This document shows positions 6,237-15,821 of a DNA stretch of 64,000 nucleotides, piece after piece. Made by a program: the position numbers and the translations under genes. The notes beneath the pieces are model-generated. The model did not search any database. It was not told where the DNA came from and worked only from the letters and a program-made list of their open reading frames with translations. The stretch spans positions 310,001-374,000 of the forward strand of contig JAJYZB010000001.1 in NCBI GenBank assembly GCA_021800275.1, read 5' to 3'. The stretch comes from a bacterium. GTDB taxonomy: Bacteria > Vulcanimicrobiota > JABDET01. Every line of letters starts with the position of its first letter. Positions within the stretch are counted from its first letter, which is position 1.

Positions 6237-6923
6237 ATGAAAATTGTAAAAGAAATCATGACAAAAGACGTTATCACGGTTTCCCCACATACGTCAGTAA
6301 GAGAAGTAGTCTCTCTCCTCCTACAACACCATTTTTCGGGAATTCCTGTTGTAAGTGAAAACAATGAACTGGTGGGAATTGTTACTGAAGCCGATCTTTT
6401 ATATCGAATTAAACTTCCAGCCATAAAAATTCTTTTAGAAAAAGAAGAAGTTTACTGTGATCCAAAACCAATTATTCATAAATACCGAAAAATTGGAGGA
6501 CAGACCGCCCAGGACGTGATGAGCAGCAATCCAGTCGTTATCTCTGAAGAAGAGAATATCGAATCTGCTGTTGACCAAATGATTCATCACAAAGTGAATC
6601 CAATTCCAGTGATCAGGAGCAAGAAATTGGTCGGAATTATCAGCAGAAGCGATATCATGCAGTTTATTCTCAAGCAAGAGAGGGAATTCGAAAAACACAA
6701 GATGACAGACGAAGAAATTTCTGAACTAGTGAGCCAGGTATTAAAAAAAGGAATCTGCCTTCCTATCGCAAATTTGAAAGTTTCCAGCCAAAATGGAATT
6801 ATTTCTTTAAACGGAGAAATTGACTCAAAAGAAAATCTGGAGCTGCTTACAGAAGTCGTAAAGAGCATCAGAGGGGTAAAAAAAGTAGAAAATGATCTGC
6901 TAATAAATAGTCTGGTAGAATAA
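6237..6923 (+). CDS. CBS-CBS-BON domain protein
   Basis: A 228-aa cytoplasmic protein. Two CBS domains occupy about residues 7-60 (IMTKDVITVSPHTSVREVV, then GIVTEADLLYRI) and 90-145 (VMSSNPVVISEEENI, then GIISRSDIM). A BON domain follows at about 155-226 (ANLKVSSQNGIISLNG, then VEND). CBS pairs usually bind adenosine nucleotides and signal energy state; BON domains bind phospholipids or other ligands. The combination is known but its function is not established. It is followed after 9 bp by the receiver-RsbW gene, so the two are probably an operon. The start follows an AAAGGA ribosome-binding site. Confidence 0.88.
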   Translation: MKIVKEIMTKDVITVSPHTSVREVVSLLLQHHFSGIPVVSENNELVGIVTEADLLYRIKLPAIKILLEKEEVYCDPKPIIHKYRKIGGQTAQDVMSSNPVVISEEENIESAVDQMIHHKVNPIPVIRSKKLVGIISRSDIMQFILKQEREFEKHKMTDEEISELVSQVLKKGICLPIANLKVSSQNGIISLNGEIDSKENLELLTEVVKSIRGVKKVENDLLINSLVE

Positions 6924-6932
6924 TTTGCGGCA

Positions 6933-7961
6933 ATGACTGCAGAAAAAAAGAAGATTCTAATTATTGATGACAGCGAATACAACGTAGAATTTATCAGCTT
7001 ACAGCTCAAAGCTGAAGGATATGAAGTTGACTCAGGTTATGATGGAGAAACCTGCATTCAAAAAGTCCAAAAAAACACTCCTGATTTAATTCTTTTAGAT
7101 GTCATGATGCCTTACATTAATGGGTACGAAGTCTGTCGTATTCTAAAAGAATCGGAACAGCACAAATTTATACCCATCATTCTTATGACAGCATTAAGCT
7201 CTCCTGATGATAAAGTAAAAGGATTTGAAGCAGGAGCAGATGATTTTCTGATCAAACCATTAAACCCAGTAGAAATGTTAGCGCGAATCAGAAATCTCCT
7301 TCGATCCCGCGAAATGATCGAAAGACAGAGGAGAAGAGAACAATATGAATCTGATTTGATCAGGGAACTCGATCTGCGAGAAGTCCGTCTGGAAGAAGAA
7401 GAAAAAAGGAAACTATTTTATAAAGAAGCTATTTTAGCTGTCACTAATGGGAAGCTTGAACTTTTAGAAAGAGGGGAATTGGAAGTTATTCGCAAGAAAA
7501 GTCAGGAACTGGCAGCCTCTCAAATTTTAATACCAGTAGATGTAAAGCAGGCGAGACACCTAGTTGGAAAAGTGGCAAAAAAGCAGAAACTCATAGAAGA
7601 GAAAGTCCAAGATCTAATCCTCTGTGTTTCTGAAGCGGCTACAAATGTCCTTAAACACGGAGGGCAGGGATCTATGACAATCACTGCCGAAGAAAACTTA
7701 ATTCGAATCTGGATTGAAGATCAAGGACCAGGCATTGATTTTTCCAACCTTCCTAAAGCGGCTCTTATGAAAGGATATTCGACAAAGCCCTCTCTAGGAT
7801 ATGGATTTAAAATTATGCTCGAGCTGCTGGATTTATTACGGCTGTGTACAGACAAAAATGGCACGACCCTGCTGCTTGAAATGATTTCTAATCCTTTAAA
7901 ATCCAAAGACCCAAAAGATATCTTTGACCAATTTATGTCCAATTGGCAGGGAGAACTGTAA
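6933..7961 (+). CDS. Response regulator with C-terminal RsbW-like ATPase domain
   Basis: A 342-aa two-part signalling protein. The receiver spans about residues 7-125: acidic pair IIDDSEYN, phospho-acceptor in LILLDVMMPYING, Thr in LMTALSS and Lys in FLIKPLNP. A charged, probably coiled-coil linker runs from about 125 to 185. An RsbW-type HATPase follows at about 190-325, with N-box SEAATNVLKHG and G1 motif EDQGPGID. Phosphorylation of the receiver would be expected to tune the serine-kinase or partner-binding activity. It is co-directional with the CBS-BON gene. It resembles the response-regulated anti-sigma switches of other bacteria, but no STAS partner is in the window. Confidence 0.85.
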   Translation: MTAEKKKILIIDDSEYNVEFISLQLKAEGYEVDSGYDGETCIQKVQKNTPDLILLDVMMPYINGYEVCRILKESEQHKFIPIILMTALSSPDDKVKGFEAGADDFLIKPLNPVEMLARIRNLLRSREMIERQRRREQYESDLIRELDLREVRLEEEEKRKLFYKEAILAVTNGKLELLERGELEVIRKKSQELAASQILIPVDVKQARHLVGKVAKKQKLIEEKVQDLILCVSEAATNVLKHGGQGSMTITAEENLIRIWIEDQGPGIDFSNLPKAALMKGYSTKPSLGYGFKIMLELLDLLRLCTDKNGTTLLLEMISNPLKSKDPKDIFDQFMSNWQGEL

Positions 7962-8010: not shown

Positions 8011-8514
8011 ATGCGAATTTCTCCGTCTGAAGAGTATGGACTGCGTTGCATATTAAAACTGGCAGCATCATATCCCCATGAACTGGCAAGTGTTGATGCA
8101 GTTTCCCGTGAAGAAGGGCTCTCAGCTGCTTATACGGAAAAACTCCTCCTTCAATTAAAAAAAGCAGGACTGGTTGAAAGCTCCAGAGGAGCATCTGGGG
8201 GATATAGGCTGAGCAGAGATCCTTCTGAGATCACTCTGTCATCTATATTAAAAGCTTTTGACGGTTTAATTTCAACGGACCTCTGCGACAGATTTACTGG
8301 GGATCACGAAGAATGTGTCCATTTAAGAGAGTGCAGTATTCGTCCCATTTTTGTCGTTCTAGCGCACCATCTTTACAACATTCTGAATCAAATTACACTT
8401 TTTGACTTAATGAAAGAAGGAGAAAAAAGGGTTCGTCAAGAAGTTTATCACAAATTCCCAGTGAAGCGGGAATGTGAGGTTTGTAAAGATGTGATTGCAG
8501 AGTTTAAAGTTTGA
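8011..8514 (+). CDS. Rrf2-family transcriptional regulator (IscR/SufR-like)
   Basis: A 167-aa winged-helix regulator. The N-terminal half matches Rrf2 proteins: EYGLRCILKLA, then AAYTEKLLLQLKKAGLVES and RGASGGYRLSR. Cysteines that could hold a cluster lie after the dimer helix: LC-x9-C-x5-C (C in DLCDRF, EECVHL, RECSIR), a spacing unlike the C-x5-C-x5-C of E. coli IscR. A further C-x2-C pair (ECEVCK) sits near the C-terminus. It stands directly upstream of sufC, so it is the obvious candidate regulator of the SUF operon, probably sensing Fe-S status. The ribosome-binding site is GAGGTG 8 bp before ATG. Confidence 0.9.
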   Translation: MRISPSEEYGLRCILKLAASYPHELASVDAVSREEGLSAAYTEKLLLQLKKAGLVESSRGASGGYRLSRDPSEITLSSILKAFDGLISTDLCDRFTGDHEECVHLRECSIRPIFVVLAHHLYNILNQITLFDLMKEGEKRVRQEVYHKFPVKRECEVCKDVIAEFKV

Positions 8515-8534
8515 TTTTTTTTTGAAGTTAATCA

Positions 8535-8548
8535 TGACAAATTTGTCA
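8535..8548. promoter_or_regulatory. Perfect palindrome, candidate Rrf2 operator for the suf operon
   Basis: TGACAAATTTGTCA is a perfect 14-bp palindrome in the 76-bp gap between the Rrf2-type regulator and sufC. Position, symmetry and the neighbouring regulator gene make it the likely operator. No experimental support is available here. Confidence 0.55.
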
Positions 8549-8590
8549 GATTTAAAATTCAATCCATTCTTTTAGAAAAGTGAGGCAGTC

Positions 8591-9334
8591 ATGAAACAAG
8601 AAATTCTGAAGATCCAAAATCTTCATGCAGAAATCGAAGGGAAAGAGATTCTAAAAGGGGTCAATCTCGTCATCCATTCAGGAGAGATTCATGCCATTAT
8701 GGGACCCAATGGTTCAGGAAAATCTACCCTATCCAATGTTTTAATGGGACATCCGCATTATAAGATTACTCAGGGGGAAATCCTGTTCAAAGGAGAAAAT
8801 TTAATCTCTCTAAAACCAGAAGAAAGAGCTAAAAAAGGGCTTTTTCTTGCTTTTCAGTACCCTACTTCAGTTCCAGGAGTCAACATGGTGAGTTACTTGA
8901 GAACCATTTTAAAAAATGTGAAAGGGAGCGATATTCCGGTTCGGGAATTCAGAAAACTTCTTGAAGAAAAAATGGGACTGCTTGAAATGGATAAATCATT
9001 TGCCCAGAGATACTTAAATGACGGCTTTTCCGGAGGAGAGAAAAAAAGGAGCGAAATCCTGCAGATGGCGCTTTTAAATCCAGAACTGGCTGTCCTGGAT
9101 GAAACTGATTCAGGACTGGATATTGATGCTTTAAGAACTGTATGTGAAGGAATTAAGAAAACCTTTCAATCTGAAAACTCTCTCTTGATTATCACCCATT
9201 ATCAAAGAATGTTAAATTATATTAAACCTGATTTTGTTCATGTCCTGGCAGAAGGGAAAATGGTGAAATCAGGAGGTCCGGAACTGGCTCTTGAATTAGA
9301 AGAAAAAGGATATGATCTAGTTCTGACGCATTAA
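8591..9334 (+). CDS. sufC: SUF Fe-S assembly ATPase SufC
   Basis: A 247-aa ABC-type ATPase that forms the SufBC2D scaffold complex for cytoplasmic Fe-S cluster assembly. Walker A is GPNGSGKST (residues 38-46), the Q-loop is [12 protein letters not shown], the signature is GFSGGEKKR, and Walker B is [14 protein letters not shown]. The switch His is in [10 protein letters not shown]. Full length. It is first of six genes in a row, with sufB starting 10 bp downstream after an AAAGGAGG site. Confidence 0.97.
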
Positions 9335-9344
9335 AGGAGGAATC

Positions 9345-10757
9345 ATGGCTGCTCCAAAACTGGACATTGGTACTCAATACGCTGATAAATATGGATTTCA
9401 CGATCCTGAGAAATATGTTTTTAAAGCAAAACCCGGCCTTTCAAAAGAGATCGTAGAAGAGATCTCCTGGATGAAAGCGGAGCCTGAATGGATGCGGGAA
9501 CAAAGACTTCGAGCTCTAGAAATCTTTTATAAAAAACCCATGCCCTTATGGGGAAACACAGAGATTCTAAACACGATTGCTTTTAATGAAATTTATTATT
9601 ATTTAAAAGCCACTGACAAACAGGAAAACAATTGGAATGAGGTTCCTGAACAGATCAAAAAAACGTTTGACAGACTTGGGATTCCAGAAGCAGAGCGAAA
9701 GTTTCTAGCAGGAGTGACAGCCCAGTACGAATCAGAAGTAGTTTATCATTCAATCCGTGAAGATCTGGCAAAACTGGGAGTTATTTTTACAGACATGGAT
9801 ACAGGGTTAAAAGAACACCCTGAAATTGTAAAAGAATATTTTGGAACTGTTATCCCTGCTGCTGACAACAAATTTTCAGCCTTAAATTCTGCAGTTTGGT
9901 CAGGAGGGTCTTTTATCTGGGTTCCTCCAGGAGTGAAAGTTGAAATTCCTTTACAGGCTTATTTCAGAATAAATGCTGAAAAAATGGGGCAGTTTGAAAG
10001 AACCCTCATTATTTGTGAAGAAGGGGCAAGTGTCCACTACATCGAAGGCTGCACAGCCCCTATTTATTCCAACAATAGTCTGCATTCAGCAGTGGTTGAA
10101 TTGATCGCTAAAAAAGGTTCTAAAATTCGATACACGACCATTCAAAACTGGTCCACTAATGTTTATAATCTGGTCACGAAAAGAGCTTTGGCTCATGAGC
10201 AGGCAGTTGTGGAATGGATTGATGGAAATCTAGGATCTAAATTAACCATGAAATATCCGTCTGTTTACATGGTGGGTCCAGGAGCCCATGGAGAAGTTTT
10301 AAGTGTCGCTTTTGCGGGAAAAGGGCAGCACCAGGACGCAGGAGCAAAAATGGTGCACTTGGCTCCCCATACTTCTTCCACCATTCTTTCTAAAAGCATC
10401 TCAAAAGATGGAGGAAGAACCTCCTACCGCGGACTGGTGAAAGTCGCAAAAGGGGCTGAAAATGTAAAATGCAATGTTAGATGTGATGCTCTTCTCCTGG
10501 ATGAGGAATCCAGATCTGACACCTATCCTTTAATGCAGATTGATGAGAAAAAAGTCCAGATTGGCCATGAAGCCACTGTCAGCAAAGTTGGAGATGAACA
10601 GTTGTTTTATTTAAGAAGTAGAGGATTAACTGAACAGGAAGCCACGACTTTAATTGTAAAGGGATTTTTTGAACCTTTTGCTAAAGTTCTCCCCATGGAA
10701 TATGCCGTTGAATTAAACCGCTTGATTGCTTTAGAAATGGAAGGCAGCCTGGGATGA
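9345..10757 (+). CDS. sufB: SUF Fe-S assembly scaffold protein SufB
   Basis: A 470-aa SufB of normal length. Characteristic stretches include [40 protein letters not shown], and, near the end, [20 protein letters not shown] followed by [19 protein letters not shown]. The conserved cysteine region is [13 protein letters not shown]. SufB is the site of nascent Fe-S cluster assembly, together with SufC and SufD. Its stop overlaps the ATG of sufD (ATGA), so translation is coupled. Confidence 0.97.
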
Positions 10758-11854
10758 GTCAAGCAGTTCTCTCTCCCCTCCCCCACCCAGTTTCTGCAGC
10801 AGAAGTTCTCCCTGATGTTCCAGTTTTTCATCAGAAAACAAGCAGAGAGGATATCGCACAGAGTGTCTATTTCAATCCTCTAGAAAACAATTCAGAGAAA
10901 ATAGTAAAACAGTGGCTTGGAACTATCATTAAACCTGAAAAAAACCAGTGGACTGAATTGAATCATGCCCACTGGAAAAAGGGGGGAGTTCTAGTGGTTC
11001 CTCCCCATACAGATTTAGGGGTCATTACTTTAACCCATACCCCTCAAGCGAAAACTTCTGTTTTCCTTCCCAGACTTTTAGTTGTCGTGCAGCAAGGTGG
11101 AAAATTAGTCCTTTTAGATGAATATTCTGGAGAGCACTCTCCTGATTATGCTGTTCCGGTCATTGAAATTGCAGCATTAGAAAACTCTGAAATCCATTAC
11201 ATCCATCTTCAAAAGTGGAATTATCAAACACAGCATTATGTTTACAGTAGAATTCATTTACAAAAAAACGCTTTCGCAACTGCCACCACCTGTATCCTTG
11301 GAGGGGGAAAAACAAATGCCCAAATTGAAGTTTCTCTCCAGGGAGAAGGCAGCAGAGCCAATCTTTTTGGGGTTGTTTATGGAACAAAAGAACAGAACAT
11401 TGAGCACTTCACCCTTCAAGAACATCTCGCACCTCATACAGAAAGTGATCTGCTGATAAAAACAGCGCTGAGAGATAAAGCCCAGAGTTATTTCAATGGA
11501 TTAATCTGGATTGAAAAAGGAGCATCAAAAACAAGCGCTTATCAGCAGAATCGAAATCTTCTCTTGAGTTCAGCAGCAAAAGCTGAAACAACTCCAAAAC
11601 TCGAAATTCTAGACAATGATGTCAGATGCACCCATGGAGCAAGTGTTGGACCTGTAGATGAAGAACAGATTTTTTATTTAGAAAGCAGAGGGATTCCTCG
11701 AAATGAAGCTGAAGCCCTTATTGTGGAAGGTTTTTTTCAGGATCTTTTAGACAGAATCCCCGCGCAAACCCTTAAAGAAGATTTATCACAGGAAATTCTA
11801 GCAGCCTTAGCTGGAACTGCTGAAAACAGCAAAGAGACCCATGAGAGGCCCTGA
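10754..11854 (+). CDS. sufD: SUF Fe-S assembly protein SufD
   Basis: A 366-aa SufB paralogue. The N-terminal third is variable; the beta-helix core carries [15 protein letters not shown]-like repeats. The C-terminal signature is [20 protein letters not shown] followed by [20 protein letters not shown]. Its role is to pair with SufB in the SufBC2D complex and support iron entry. It overlaps sufB by 4 bp and is 11 bp from the Rieske gene. No unusual features beyond a slightly short N-terminal domain. Confidence 0.94.
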
Positions 11855-11865
11855 AGGAGAGAAAA

Positions 11866-12213
11866 ATGGAAAATTCACAGAGTAGCTGGATTGAAATTTG
11901 TAAAACAACGGAACTGCTGGAAGGACAAATTAAAGCATTTCAGGTTCAAGGAAATCGCATTGCTCTCTGCCGTGTTCAAGGAGGAGGGTTTTATGCAGTG
12001 GATGATCTCTGCACCCATGATGATGGGCCTTTAGGAGAAGGGGATCTTTTAGGAACTGAAATAGAGTGTCCAAGACATGGAGCCAGGTTTGATATAAAAA
12101 CCGGAAAAGCCCTGTGTCTGCCTGCTGTTCTCCCTATCAAAACTTATCCTGTTCAAATTACAGGAGAAACTGTAAAAATTCAAGTTCCCCAACAGGTTAC
12201 CAAAACCCCATGA
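11866..12213 (+). CDS. Rieske-type [2Fe-2S] ferredoxin in the suf operon
   Basis: A 115-aa soluble Rieske ferredoxin. The cluster ligands are C-x-H in DDLCTHDDGPLG and C-x2-H in ECPRHGARFD, 16 residues apart in the usual pattern. It resembles the non-haem dioxygenase ferredoxin components (NirD/BphF type). In suf operons of several phyla such a protein sits between sufD and sufS; it may supply electrons for cluster assembly, but this is not proven. Its stop TGA overlaps the sufS ATG (ATGA), tying it to the operon. A GGAG ribosome-binding site precedes the ATG. Confidence 0.92.
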   Translation: MENSQSSWIEICKTTELLEGQIKAFQVQGNRIALCRVQGGGFYAVDDLCTHDDGPLGEGDLLGTEIECPRHGARFDIKTGKALCLPAVLPIKTYPVQITGETVKIQVPQQVTKTP

Positions 12214-13529
12214 TGACTGATATTCATTCAGGTAATATTCCTGCAGCCTCTGATATTCCTGAGACTTCTCGCGTTCCAGCCTCTGATGGAGCGAAAATTT
12301 TTAAAAAAACACGAGATGATTTCCCTATCTTAAAACGAAAAATTTATGGAAAACCTCTTATTTATCTGGATAATGCAGCAACCAGCCAGAAACCTTTTTC
12401 TGTGATTCAAGCGATCCAGACTTACTATGAAAACTCAAATGCCAATATCCACAGAGGGGTTCACCATTTAGCAGAAGAGGCAACCAGTGCTTATGAAGCC
12501 GTCAGAAAAAAAACAGCTGCTTTTATCCATGCCAAAGACCATCATTCCATTCTATTCACCAGAAACTGCACTGAAGCCATTAACCTGGCAGCTTTTTCCT
12601 GGGGAAGAAAATTTTTAAAACCTGGAGACGAGATTCTTTTAACAGAGATGGAGCACCACTCCAATCTGATTCCATGGCATTTTTTAAAAAACGAGAAAGG
12701 GATTGAGCTGAAATTTATTCCCTTTAATGAAGAAGGCATTTTAAATCTCTCTAAACTTCCTGAACTCCTCTCTTCCAGAACAAAACTGGTCAGTCTGACC
12801 CATATATCCAACAGCCTTGGAACCATCAATCCCATTAAACAAATTATCGAAGCAGCCCATGAAAAAGGAGCCCTTGTCCTGATTGATGGCGCACAGTCAG
12901 TCCCCCATCTCCCTGTTGATGTTCAAGATTTAAACTGTGATTTCTTAGCTTTTTCTTCCCACAAAATGCTGGGTCCAACAGGGGTCGGAATTCTTTATGG
13001 AAAACTAGAACTCTTAGAAGCTATGGATCCTTTTATGGGAGGAGGGGAAATGATCCGAGAAGTCTGGCTGGATCATTCCACTTATTCTAAACCCCCCTGG
13101 AAATATGAAGCAGGAACCCCGAATATTGCGGATACCATTGGATTCGGGGCTGCCCTGGATTATTTGAATCAAACGGGAATGAAAGAAATTCAAAAACAGG
13201 AAGAAGAGTTAACCCGTTTTGCCCTTCAGAGATTCAGCGCTGAGAAAGAAATTAAAGTGTATGGACCCCAAAATTTTAAGATTCATGCGGGGATTATCTC
13301 TTTTAATCTGGAAGGAATCCATCCTCATGATGTTGGAACCATTTTAGATCAGGAAGGAATTGCCATTAGAGCAGGACACCATTGCACACAGCCCTTAATG
13401 AGAAAACTTGGAGTTTCTGGAACAGCCAGAGCCAGTTTTTATTTTTACAATACAAAAGAAGAAGTAGAACTGCTTCTTCAATCCATTCAAAAAGTGTTTC
13501 AGATCTTCCATCATGCTGCCGCTCGATGA
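12210..13529 (+). CDS. sufS: Cysteine desulfurase SufS
   Basis: A group II PLP-dependent cysteine desulfurase that provides sulfur for SUF assembly. The PLP lysine is in AFSSHKMLGPTG and the catalytic cysteine in RAGHHCTQPLMRKLG. The N-terminal part shows PLIYLDNAATSQKP and NANIHRGVHHLAEEAT. I chose ATG 12210 (overlapping the Rieske stop), giving 439 aa; an open frame extends to 12114 but lies inside the Rieske gene. Even so the enzyme has about 35 more N-terminal residues (DIHSGNIPAASDIPETSRVP) than typical SufS. It overlaps sufU by 17 bp. Confidence 0.95.
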   Translation: MMTDIHSGNIPAASDIPETSRVPASDGAKIFKKTRDDFPILKRKIYGKPLIYLDNAATSQKPFSVIQAIQTYYENSNANIHRGVHHLAEEATSAYEAVRKKTAAFIHAKDHHSILFTRNCTEAINLAAFSWGRKFLKPGDEILLTEMEHHSNLIPWHFLKNEKGIELKFIPFNEEGILNLSKLPELLSSRTKLVSLTHISNSLGTINPIKQIIEAAHEKGALVLIDGAQSVPHLPVDVQDLNCDFLAFSSHKMLGPTGVGILYGKLELLEAMDPFMGGGEMIREVWLDHSTYSKPPWKYEAGTPNIADTIGFGAALDYLNQTGMKEIQKQEEELTRFALQRFSAEKEIKVYGPQNFKIHAGIISFNLEGIHPHDVGTILDQEGIAIRAGHHCTQPLMRKLGVSGTARASFYFYNTKEEVELLLQSIQKVFQIFHHAAAR

Positions 13530-13947
13530 ACTGTATCAGGAAGTCATCCTGGACCATTATAAAAATCCAAAAAATCAAGGAACCATAGAAAATCCTGATT
13601 ATAAAGGACATGGAGTCAATCCCCTGTGCGGAGATGATGTCGAAATCTGGATTAAACTGGAAAATGGCAAAATTAAAAGTTTGAAATCCATTGGAAAAGG
13701 ATGTGCTGTCAGCCAGGCTTCTTTAAGCATGATGGGAGAAGCCCTCCAGGGAAAAAGCATAGAAGAAGCTAGACAAGCAGTTGAAAAATTTAAAAAAGGG
13801 ATGCTGGAAGGGGGAGAACTCCACTTTGAAGAGTATCCGGATCTAGAAGCTCTAGAAGGCGTAAAGAAATTTCCTGTGCGGATTAAATGCGCTGTCCTGC
13901 CGTGGAATACATTTTTAGAGGCTCTGGAAAGTCATCCTTCAGCCTAA
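13513..13947 (+). CDS. sufU: Sulfur-transfer / scaffold protein SufU
   Basis: A 144-aa IscU-like protein of the SufU class. The three conserved cysteines are in VNPLCGDDVEIW, IGKGCAVSQAS and RIKCAVLPWN. It also has the roughly 20-residue insertion between the second and third cysteines that separates SufU from IscU. SufU in Gram-positive bacteria is a zinc-dependent sulfur acceptor for SufS. The gene begins inside the end of sufS (17-bp overlap) and closes the operon. Confidence 0.95.
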   Translation: MLPLDELYQEVILDHYKNPKNQGTIENPDYKGHGVNPLCGDDVEIWIKLENGKIKSLKSIGKGCAVSQASLSMMGEALQGKSIEEARQAVEKFKKGMLEGGELHFEEYPDLEALEGVKKFPVRIKCAVLPWNTFLEALESHPSA

Positions 13948-14070: not shown

Positions 14071-14427
14071 ATGGGAATTACGTATTTAAAAGTTAAAGTG
14101 GCAAATCCTGAACATCCTCAAAAAAAAGAAATCTGCAAATTTCTGGTGGATTCATGGGCTGTTTATTCAGTGATCCCAGCTCCTATTTTAAAACGCTTAG
14201 GAATTAAAGCGACATCCTCTGAAGAATTTATTCTGGCGAATGGAGAGATTGTCAAGAAAGATGTGGGGAATGCCTATTTCGAATACAACAGGAAAATGCG
14301 GGCAGCTCCTGTTATTTTTGGAGATGTGGGGGTATTTTTGTTGGGAGCAACAACACTTGAGGCTCTCGGCATGATTTTAGATCCTTTACGTCGTGAACTT
14401 AAAACACTCCCTTTAACATTAATGTAG
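14071..14427 (+). CDS. Retropepsin-like aspartic protease homologue with altered active site
   Basis: A 118-aa protein that follows the clan AA (retropepsin-like) aspartic protease pattern. It has KFLVDSWAVYSVIPAPILKR, LGIKATSSEEFILANGE and, near the end, LGATTLEALGMILDP. The catalytic motif in this family is DTG; here it reads DSW, so the essential glycine is replaced by Trp. The protein is probably inactive, or the gene is in early decay. Homologues are often found beside toxin-antitoxin genes or in variable regions. A partial copy lies 850 bp downstream (15025-15140). Confidence 0.7.
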   Translation: MGITYLKVKVANPEHPQKKEICKFLVDSWAVYSVIPAPILKRLGIKATSSEEFILANGEIVKKDVGNAYFEYNRKMRAAPVIFGDVGVFLLGATTLEALGMILDPLRRELKTLPLTLM

Positions 14428-15144: not shown

Positions 15145-15549
15145 TCAATGAACCACTTCCAATATAAGCCCCTTGATTCTTCCATAATCCCGTGTGTCAT
15201 AAGTTATAATGGAGCAGCCAAGAGAGATACAGATTGAAGCTGTCATCAGATCATGAGCACCAACAATATCCCCCTTTTTCACTAACTGCGCCCAAACTCT
15301 TGCATAAATTCTGGCAGCATTCAAGTCAAAAGAATAAATGGGAAAAGTCTCAATGATTTTTTCAACATAAGCCTCTCTCTTCAGCCGTCTTTTTTCTGAA
15401 TCGGCTCGATGAACGCCGTGAAGAAGTTCAGAAACTGTTATTGTCGTAATCCCAAAAAATTCATTTTCTCTTTTTGAAACAACTTTTTCAAGCTCTAAAA
15501 AGCCTTTTTCTGCAGCGATTAAAATACTTGTGTCTAAGATTACCCCCAT
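15145..15549 (-). CDS. PIN-domain toxin (VapC-like ribonuclease)
   Basis: A 134-aa PIN-domain protein. The expected acidic residues are present: Asp in VILDTSILIAAE, Glu in TVSELLHGVHRAD, Asp in GAHDLMTASICISLG and Asp in ITYDTRDYGRI. VapC toxins cleave RNA, often tRNA, in a Mg-dependent way. It overlaps the antitoxin gene by 10 bp, the usual arrangement with antitoxin first. Length fits the family and no damage is visible. Confidence 0.92.
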   Translation of the reverse strand: MGVILDTSILIAAEKGFLELEKVVSKRENEFFGITTITVSELLHGVHRADSEKRRLKREAYVEKIIETFPIYSFDLNAARIYARVWAQLVKKGDIVGAHDLMTASICISLGCSIITYDTRDYGRIKGLILEVVH

Positions 15550-15821
15550 AAACTCTTTCGCGGAATCCGAGGCTGCTGATGGATAATATTCTTTAAATCC
15601 ATTTCGAATTTCTTGGATTCATCCGCTAATTTTGGAAGCTGCTCAAACAGATTTTTTAAATCTCGTAAAGTTTTCTGTTTTGATGCCGATTCTGCCGAAG
15701 AAAGAAAGGCAATTGGTTTTCCCCCTCTCACAATAATATACTGTTCTCCAGCATATCGAACAGAATTTAACATTTCAGAGAATTTCCTAACAGCTTCTGT
15801 GGCGGTTATTGTTTTTTTCAT
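15540..15821 (-). CDS. Phd/YefM-type antitoxin
   Basis: A 93-aa protein with the Phd/YefM N-terminal pattern: TITATEAVRKFSEMLNSVRY, then EQYIIVRGGKPIAFLSSAE. The C-terminal half is charged and should wrap around the toxin. Phd/YefM antitoxins bind DNA and repress their own operon. The palindrome at 15869-15882 could be the operator. It is translated first and overlaps vapC. Confidence 0.88.
   Translation of the reverse strand: MKKTITATEAVRKFSEMLNSVRYAGEQYIIVRGGKPIAFLSSAESASKQKTLRDLKNLFEQLPKLADESKKFEMDLKNIIHQQPRIPRKSLWG

Follow-up and report, generated by a model that had tools for sequence, protein, structure and literature searches.

The regulator gene and the suf operon

The window, i.e., the whole stretch of 64,000 nucleotides that was analysed, carries on its + strand a gene for an Rrf2-type regulator followed, in this order, by sufC, sufB, sufD, a gene for a Rieske ferredoxin, sufS, and sufU (Table 1). 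The regulator gene adjoins the suf genes directly, as genes of the RisR (IS6) group of Rrf2 proteins adjoin suf or isc genes. The M. xanthus member of this group, RisR, is a repressor of both suf and isc according to the available parts of an mBio paper of 2023 (PMC9973013).

Table 1. Features of the regulator–suf region, with positions given in the window.
Feature	Position	Strand	Basis or remark
risR-like Rrf2 regulator gene, 167 aa	8011..8514	+	Rrf2 E 1.3e-29; TIGR00738 above cut-off
Codons 8 to 13 (Glu8, Arg12, Cys13)	8032..8049	+	Glu8, candidate fourth ligand; Arg12, putative relay
C92 to C108 stretch including C102, inferred cluster ligands	8284..8334	+	Same residue numbers as the ligands presumed for RisR of M. 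xanthus (PMC9973013, available parts)
C155-x-x-C158, C-terminal	8473..8484	+	In the window and the sister genome
Putative operator TGACAAATTTGTCA (TGAC-N6-GTCA)	8535-8548	+	Perfect palindrome, inferred
sufC	8591..9334	+	TIGR01978 E 6e-106
sufB	9345..10757	+	TIGR01980 E 8e-214
sufD	10754..11854	+	TIGR01981 E 9e-76
Rieske-type [2Fe-2S] ferredoxin, flanked by sufD and sufS within the suf operon	11866..12213	+	PF00355
sufS	12210..13529	+	TIGR01979 E 4e-181; start codon chosen by the authors
sufU	13513..13947	+	TIGR01994 E 4e-45

Several neighboring genes lie outside this set. Ahead of the regulator gene, in the same orientation and separated by short gaps, are genes for a CBS-domain protein and for a response regulator (window 6237-7961), an order also kept in the sister genome; by eye only, the C-terminal part of the response regulator resembles an anti-sigma/HATPase domain. 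Directly 3' of sufU, an ORF of 118 aa without a Pfam match (14071-14427) shows, again by eye, a putative resemblance to retropepsin-like aspartyl proteases. On the opposite strand, 15145-15821 holds genes for a PIN-domain protein and a Phd/YefM-type antitoxin, likely a toxin–antitoxin pair.

The regulator is the only Rrf2 protein of its genome (a single PF02082 match), which has a size of 2.46 Mb and is 98% complete. Its membership of the superfamily is indicated by PF02082 and TIGR00738, both above cut-off, and by the agreeing fold. Indeed, in an AlphaFold prediction for a single subunit (mean pLDDT 83.7, but below 60 for residues 91–110), the protein has the Rrf2 fold, and its nearest structures include CymR, IscR, RsrR, and NsrR. 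The named subfamilies are another matter. The regulator remains below the cut-offs of both IscR models (73.9 vs. 207.55 bits for TIGR02010; 56.3 vs. 275 bits for NF008110), of the model for the Xanthomonas-type SUF regulator (TIGR02944, 76.1 vs. 110.65 bits), and of those for NsrR (43.4 vs. 182 bits), RirA (53.6 vs. 193 bits), and CymR (72.6 vs. 195 bits).

In the translated ORF, cysteines are present at positions 13, 92, 102, 108, 155, and 158. The first-pass annotation had reported a C-x9-C-x5-C spacing together with a C-terminal CxxC, unlike IscR, and the protein agrees with it on each point: the residues are C92-x9-C102-x5-C108 and C155-x2-C158, whereas E. coli IscR, as read from NC_000913.3, has C-x5-C-x5-C. 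Its further claim, that the spacing is unusual, has to be given up. C92, C102, and C108 are exactly the presumed ligands of M. xanthus RisR, whose cluster was assigned as [4Fe-4S] from its visible spectrum (PMC9973013, available parts), and a private novelty of the spacing is thereby ruled out. Cys13, which was missing from the earlier list of cysteines, is conserved among the relatives.

The C-terminal CxxC was rejected as a defining part of the family, as a CxxC beyond residue 140 occurs in 5 of the 95 family loci; judged from these sequences, it is a side feature of the window's genus and a few others. Four loci that belong to Acidobacteria or came from the search of that group (L076, L077, L203, and L209) have a C-terminal C-x8-C-x2-C cluster of their own, which is perhaps independent of the window's CxxC.

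The palindrome before sufC and its spacing in relatives

The gap between the regulator gene and sufC is 76 bp long and contains TGACAAATTTGTCA, which is, as had been noticed at first sight, a perfect palindrome; it lies 42 bp before sufC. A palindrome that was common and unrelated to Fe-S genes would have spoken against an operator, and a scan of the genome had been suggested. The exact 14-mer turned out to occur once in the 2.46 Mb, so the objection fails for the exact sequence. Even for the looser form TGAC-N6-GTCA, with 27 occurrences genome-wide including the suf site, about 0.0007 would be expected in a gap of 76 bp.

Neither a sigma-70-like promoter nor a terminator was found in the regulator–sufC gap. 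The lack of a promoter motif beside TGACAAATTTGTCA, and the fact that short AT-rich palindromes are common, would suit a chance palindrome without function. However, the sister genome (locus L047, contig JAKAVV010000019.1), whose regulator is 85% identical to the window's, also contains exact TGACAAATTTGTCA once only, at the same place, and there it sits within a perfect palindrome of 24 bp. In the alignment of the two genomes, the palindrome and its left flank are kept, while the right flank has diverged and become shorter. Together with the fit of TGACAAATTTGTCA to the N6 site of the relatives described below, this conservation makes a chance origin hardly credible.

A wider regulon of the palindrome in the window's genome was considered and rejected, since near-matches are not above the reversed-pattern control: TGACAAATTTGTCA with at most two mismatches is found at 20 places against 27 for the control, and the 27 occurrences of TGAC-N6-GTCA compare with 35. 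The surroundings of 29 places, the suf site included, were read, and 26 of these fall inside an ORF of at least 80 aa. Only the suf site, L013, and L016 lie outside any such ORF and before one; L013 and L016, each with two mismatches, precede a gene for S-adenosylhomocysteine hydrolase and an ORF without a Pfam match, respectively. Three places (L012, L014, and L100) are inside ORFs of only 112–124 aa and before another ORF, and on this context they could still count as further sites. In ten genomes of relatives, TTGAC-N6-GTCAGGT with one mismatch allowed gave 140 matches in total against 158 for the control, with an excess in G151 (10 vs. 4) and G153 (14 vs. 5). A regulon signal is thus rejected for the window's genome but may exist in G151 and G153.

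Among the relatives, a form ATACTTGAC-N6-GTCAGGTTT recurs before the regulator gene, with a TATAAT-like stretch behind it in many loci. To quantify the spacing, GAC-Nn-GTC was counted in the 250 bp ahead of the regulator gene and the 200 bp behind it, for a deduplicated set of 95 loci whose filter included the letters EEYGL, so that Glu7 and Glu8 are present there by construction. GAC-N6-GTC occurs in 45 of the 95 loci (20 shuffles: mean 10.1, maximum 14), whereas GAC-N7-GTC, found in 12, is at chance (shuffle mean 9.4); among the remaining spacings between 2 and 12, n = 3 alone exceeds its shuffles, by a small margin (17 loci; mean 10.8, maximum 16). When AC-N6-GT with at least three of four flanking bases paired was required, 45 loci again matched (shuffle mean 5.8), against one for n = 7. 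A stricter pattern that allows GTA right halves, and that was shaped after these loci had been viewed, gave 62 of 95 for N6 (100 shuffles: mean 1.7, maximum 5) and one for N7. The corresponding values are 36 and 0 of 62 for loci thinned to less than 75% identity (first 100 residues, gap-free). This stricter pattern misses the window's ATGAC, and the window and its sister are outside its 62 loci. In addition, 13 further loci contain TAC-N6-GTA, all of them L075 (Lujinxingia) or members of its phylum; this form was noticed before it was counted, the count has no shuffles to compare with, and three of the 13 also match with a spacing of four. As far as these sequences go, the half-sites drift in the relatives and the spacing of six stays.

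The position of the site is more variable. With the combined pattern, it lies only before the regulator gene in 56 of the 95 loci, only after it in six, on both sides in two, and on neither in 31. Three of the six after-only loci (L057, L073, and L074) have a site before the gene by the looser pattern; the window, its sister, and L067 remain after-only. The combined pattern has no match within 400 bp ahead of the regulator gene of the window, so autoregulation through an operator of the N6 kind appears unlikely here.

That the palindrome fits an operator of the neighboring dimeric regulator, as first proposed, is supported by these counts: GAC-N6-GTC accompanies this protein type across several phyla. 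The same observation bears on the idea that TGACAAATTTGTCA serves another dimeric regulator, e.g., a Fur-type or redox regulator, while the Rrf2 protein acts elsewhere. Given also that the genome has one Rrf2 gene and one exact site, and that the two adjoin, we regard this as very unlikely.

The spacing in M. xanthus RisR was printed differently, as T(t/g)GAC-N7-GTCC(t/a) for two sites of M. xanthus, which are not presented there as typical of the whole IS6 group (PMC9973013, available parts). The published half-sites T(T/G)GAC/GTCCA nevertheless occur with N6 in four RisR-type relatives from the phylum of L075, i.e., as TTGAC-N6-GTCCA in L192, L193, and L196 and as TGGAC-N6-GTCCA in L304. The window and its relatives show N6, and the published GAC-N7-GTC is at chance among them; these data conflict with the printed N7 and raise a clear question on the published spacing.

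Distribution of the RisR type and a second Rrf2 subfamily at sufC-sufB

The family search, whose seeds included EEYGLRCI and FTGDHEEC, brought in 50 relatives, and 44 of these loci encode a RisR-type protein. In 40 of them the regulator gene is followed by a suf gene in the same orientation; in the remaining four, the contig ends in or just after the gene (L087 and L061), suf is on the other side (L079), or no suf gene is present (L088). Profile searches gave a comparable picture. In the phylum of L075, 43 of 188 genomes matched at E ≤1e-30, with suf in 25 of 30 loci; in the phylum of L060 (Edaphobacter), 33 of 149 genomes matched, and suf follows in 23 of the 26 loci that could be parsed out of 30. 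A few loci recur between these sets of 44, 30, and 30. Among 35 large genomes of the phylum of L075, sufB is present in 12 and an Rrf2 gene is nearby in seven of these: one of RisR type (L304), one with EEYGLRC and C-x7-C-x5-C (L308), and five of other types. Two Gemmatales loci (L080 and L084) have RisR-type proteins with C-x11-C-x6-C, and TTGAC-N6-GTA sites are still found before them. The presence of RisR-type proteins in Acidobacteria and Chthonomonadia is in line with the published IS6 group, which includes Acidobacteria and Chthonomonas, among others (PMC9973013, available parts).

In the window's own phylum, the RisR type is clear only in the window's genus, with 199.7 and 198.7 bits against at most 104.6 elsewhere; any match at E ≤0.001 was obtained in 40 of 149 genomes. 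A tree of 96 rows, which does not contain M. xanthus RisR, places the window and its sister among the RisR-type rows, and those from Acidobacteria, Chthonomonadia, the phylum of L075, and others group with them. Support is weak for the nearest rows, which are from Latescibacterota, Zixibacteria, and Lindowbacteria. Of the other Rrf2 rows, 26 of 32 split off at 98/98 together with E. coli IscR and NsrR; the divergent rows L225, L227, L228, and L229 fall among the RisR type, L024 and L035 (wrong frames, absurdly long branches) stand alone, and six further loci contributed no row. The RisR-type label is clustered on the tree (four changes, shuffled mean 28.2) and does not form one clean clade.

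Elsewhere in the window's phylum, ten genomes (families f11, f13, and f15) have a different Rrf2 gene before sufC-sufB. Their SufB proteins are 74–76% identical to the window's, that of G050 being a contig-end fragment. The Rrf2 protein of these loci has four cysteines, arranged as C-x9-C-x5-C in seven and as C-x10-C-x4-C in three of the ten, plus a further Cys x5 later. It starts with SSYGLRA in contrast to the EEYGLRC of the RisR type, with Ser8 and Arg12, and in the tree, nine of its ten rows (those entered correctly) form a separate branch. Its loci contain CTTGAC-N7-GTCAAG or a close form: TTGAC-N7 was found in all ten by the looser pattern, and the stricter pattern gave N7 in eight, N6 in two, and N5 in one of the ten. 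Two Rrf2 subfamilies at one operon, with sites that differ by one base in spacing, make a well-defined case in which to ask how the geometry of an operator selects a dimeric regulator.

A profile of the four-Cys protein retrieved other Rrf2 proteins from the phylum of L075, with suf in none of the 26 parsed loci (30 loci, four unparsed; L278 was misparsed). Four loci (L269, L271, L273, and L276) encode an Rrf2 type with C91-C92-x10-C103-x5-C109 and have no suf gene in the stretch; TTGAC-N7-GTCAAG or a close form is located just before the Rrf2 gene, another N7 case.

Cluster coordination, proposed mechanism, and comparison with known systems

The fourth ligand of the RisR cluster was described as "unknown", and a non-protein ligand was suggested, in the available parts of a 2024 review (PMC11138216). 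In S. coelicolor NsrR, the partner subunit supplies the fourth ligand, Asp8; a salt bridge joins Asp8 to Arg12, and Arg12 in turn makes contact with the recognition-helix region (PMC5411485, available parts). The count to trust for these positions is that of 60 profile-found loci rather than the 95-locus set, although every row that went into the profile has Glu8 and Arg12 and a few of these rows recur among the 60. Position 8 is Glu in 58 and Asp in two of them, Arg12 is present in all 60, and Cys13 in 59. E. coli NsrR has Asp8 and Arg12, while E. coli IscR has Arg8 and Thr12. Since the acidic residue 8 and Arg12 are conserved and equal the ligand and relay pair of NsrR, we propose by analogy Glu8 of the partner subunit as a candidate fourth ligand of RisR and Arg12 as a relay; Cys13 is an alternative candidate, judging by its conservation. 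A single-subunit model cannot show such a ligand because it would belong to the partner subunit. Glu8, together with Arg12, thus offers a single-residue test of the fourth ligand. In the literature searched, mainly open-licence papers with few subscription journals, one RisR has been studied, and no paper on Glu8 or on an N6 site in RisR was found.

We consider it highly probable that the regulator is of the RisR type and that its dimer, with an Fe-S cluster bound, represses suf from TGACAAATTTGTCA and is released upon cluster loss. The dimer would hold an Fe-S cluster, probably [4Fe-4S], through C92, C102, and C108 of one subunit, and Glu8 of the other subunit would complete the coordination. 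On TGACAAATTTGTCA, the cluster-loaded dimer would block transcription of the suf operon; when clusters are short, through iron limitation or oxidation, the cluster would be lost, the protein would let go, and suf would be expressed. In the published model, likewise, holo-RisR represses and the apo form is presumed to release (PMC9973013, available parts), and this model should carry over along with the cysteines and the site. What the sequences show directly is the gene, its cysteines, a palindrome that is unique and conserved, and the N6 site of the relatives; the cluster type, repression, release, and the role of Glu8/Arg12 are reasoned by analogy with RisR of M. xanthus and NsrR of S. coelicolor. 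The regulator very probably senses Fe-S clusters, and binding to TGACAAATTTGTCA with shut-off of the suf genes is the most likely reading of the sequence. Because the site is 3' of the regulator gene, suf, and probably not the regulator itself, would be under control; the blocking step is not anchored to a promoter here because of the lack of a sigma-70-like promoter in the gap.

The regulator might instead act as IscR does, with mainly the cluster-free protein binding the site and activating suf. Apo-IscR activates the E. coli suf operon (PMC9973013, available parts), and the position upstream of sufC is one where an activator could sit. Yet many sites of the relatives overlap TTGAC promoter-like elements, which fits repression, the regulator scores far under the IscR cut-offs, and E. 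coli IscR lacks the NsrR-like combination of Arg12 with an acidic residue at position 8. Activation of this kind appears quite improbable as compared with repression by a RisR-type dimer. A broader proposal, which we put forward tentatively and as somewhat less likely to be right than wrong, is that the RisR type follows a code of its own. This code would combine an N6 operator, as opposed to the N7 of IscR and the four-Cys protein, with a Glu8 ligand from the partner subunit that is connected via Arg12 to the recognition helix. In the window's phylum, where sufC-sufB has either the four-Cys/N7 or the RisR/N6 regulator, the regulator would have been exchanged, the operator re-spaced by one base and, here, moved between the regulator gene and sufC.

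The closest known system is M. xanthus RisR, which shares the numbering and spacing of C92/C102/C108, a suf-adjacent gene, and a GAC...GTC palindrome; it differs in the printed N7 and in that isc is also controlled (PMC9973013, available parts). At the window's locus, the site is between the regulator gene and sufC, and a C-terminal CxxC is present. E. coli IscR has the Rrf2 fold, three clustered cysteines, Fe-S assembly genes as neighbors, and a GAC...GTC palindrome in common with the window's regulator, but it differs in its C-x5-C-x5-C, in Arg8/Thr12 vs. Glu8/Arg12, and in the site of iscR, which the same pattern script reads as CCGAC-N7-GTCAA vs. N6 in the window. NsrR of S. coelicolor and E. 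coli is similar in the acidic residue 8 and Arg12; it is, however, a regulator of NO stress with another cysteine spacing, and the window's protein does not reach the cut-off of the NsrR model. The four-Cys protein found elsewhere in the phylum has the place in the operon, C-x9-C-x5-C in seven of ten, and Arg12 in common with the window's regulator, and is distinguished by SSYGLRA, a Ser8 that is not acidic, the extra Cys, and N7 sites. The regulator with its putative operator is a real pair of an ordinary kind, and the regulator very probably belongs to the known, little-studied RisR subgroup; most is to be gained from the N6 site in the relatives, from how it contrasts with the N7 regulators that serve this operon elsewhere in the phylum, and from a testable candidate for the fourth ligand.
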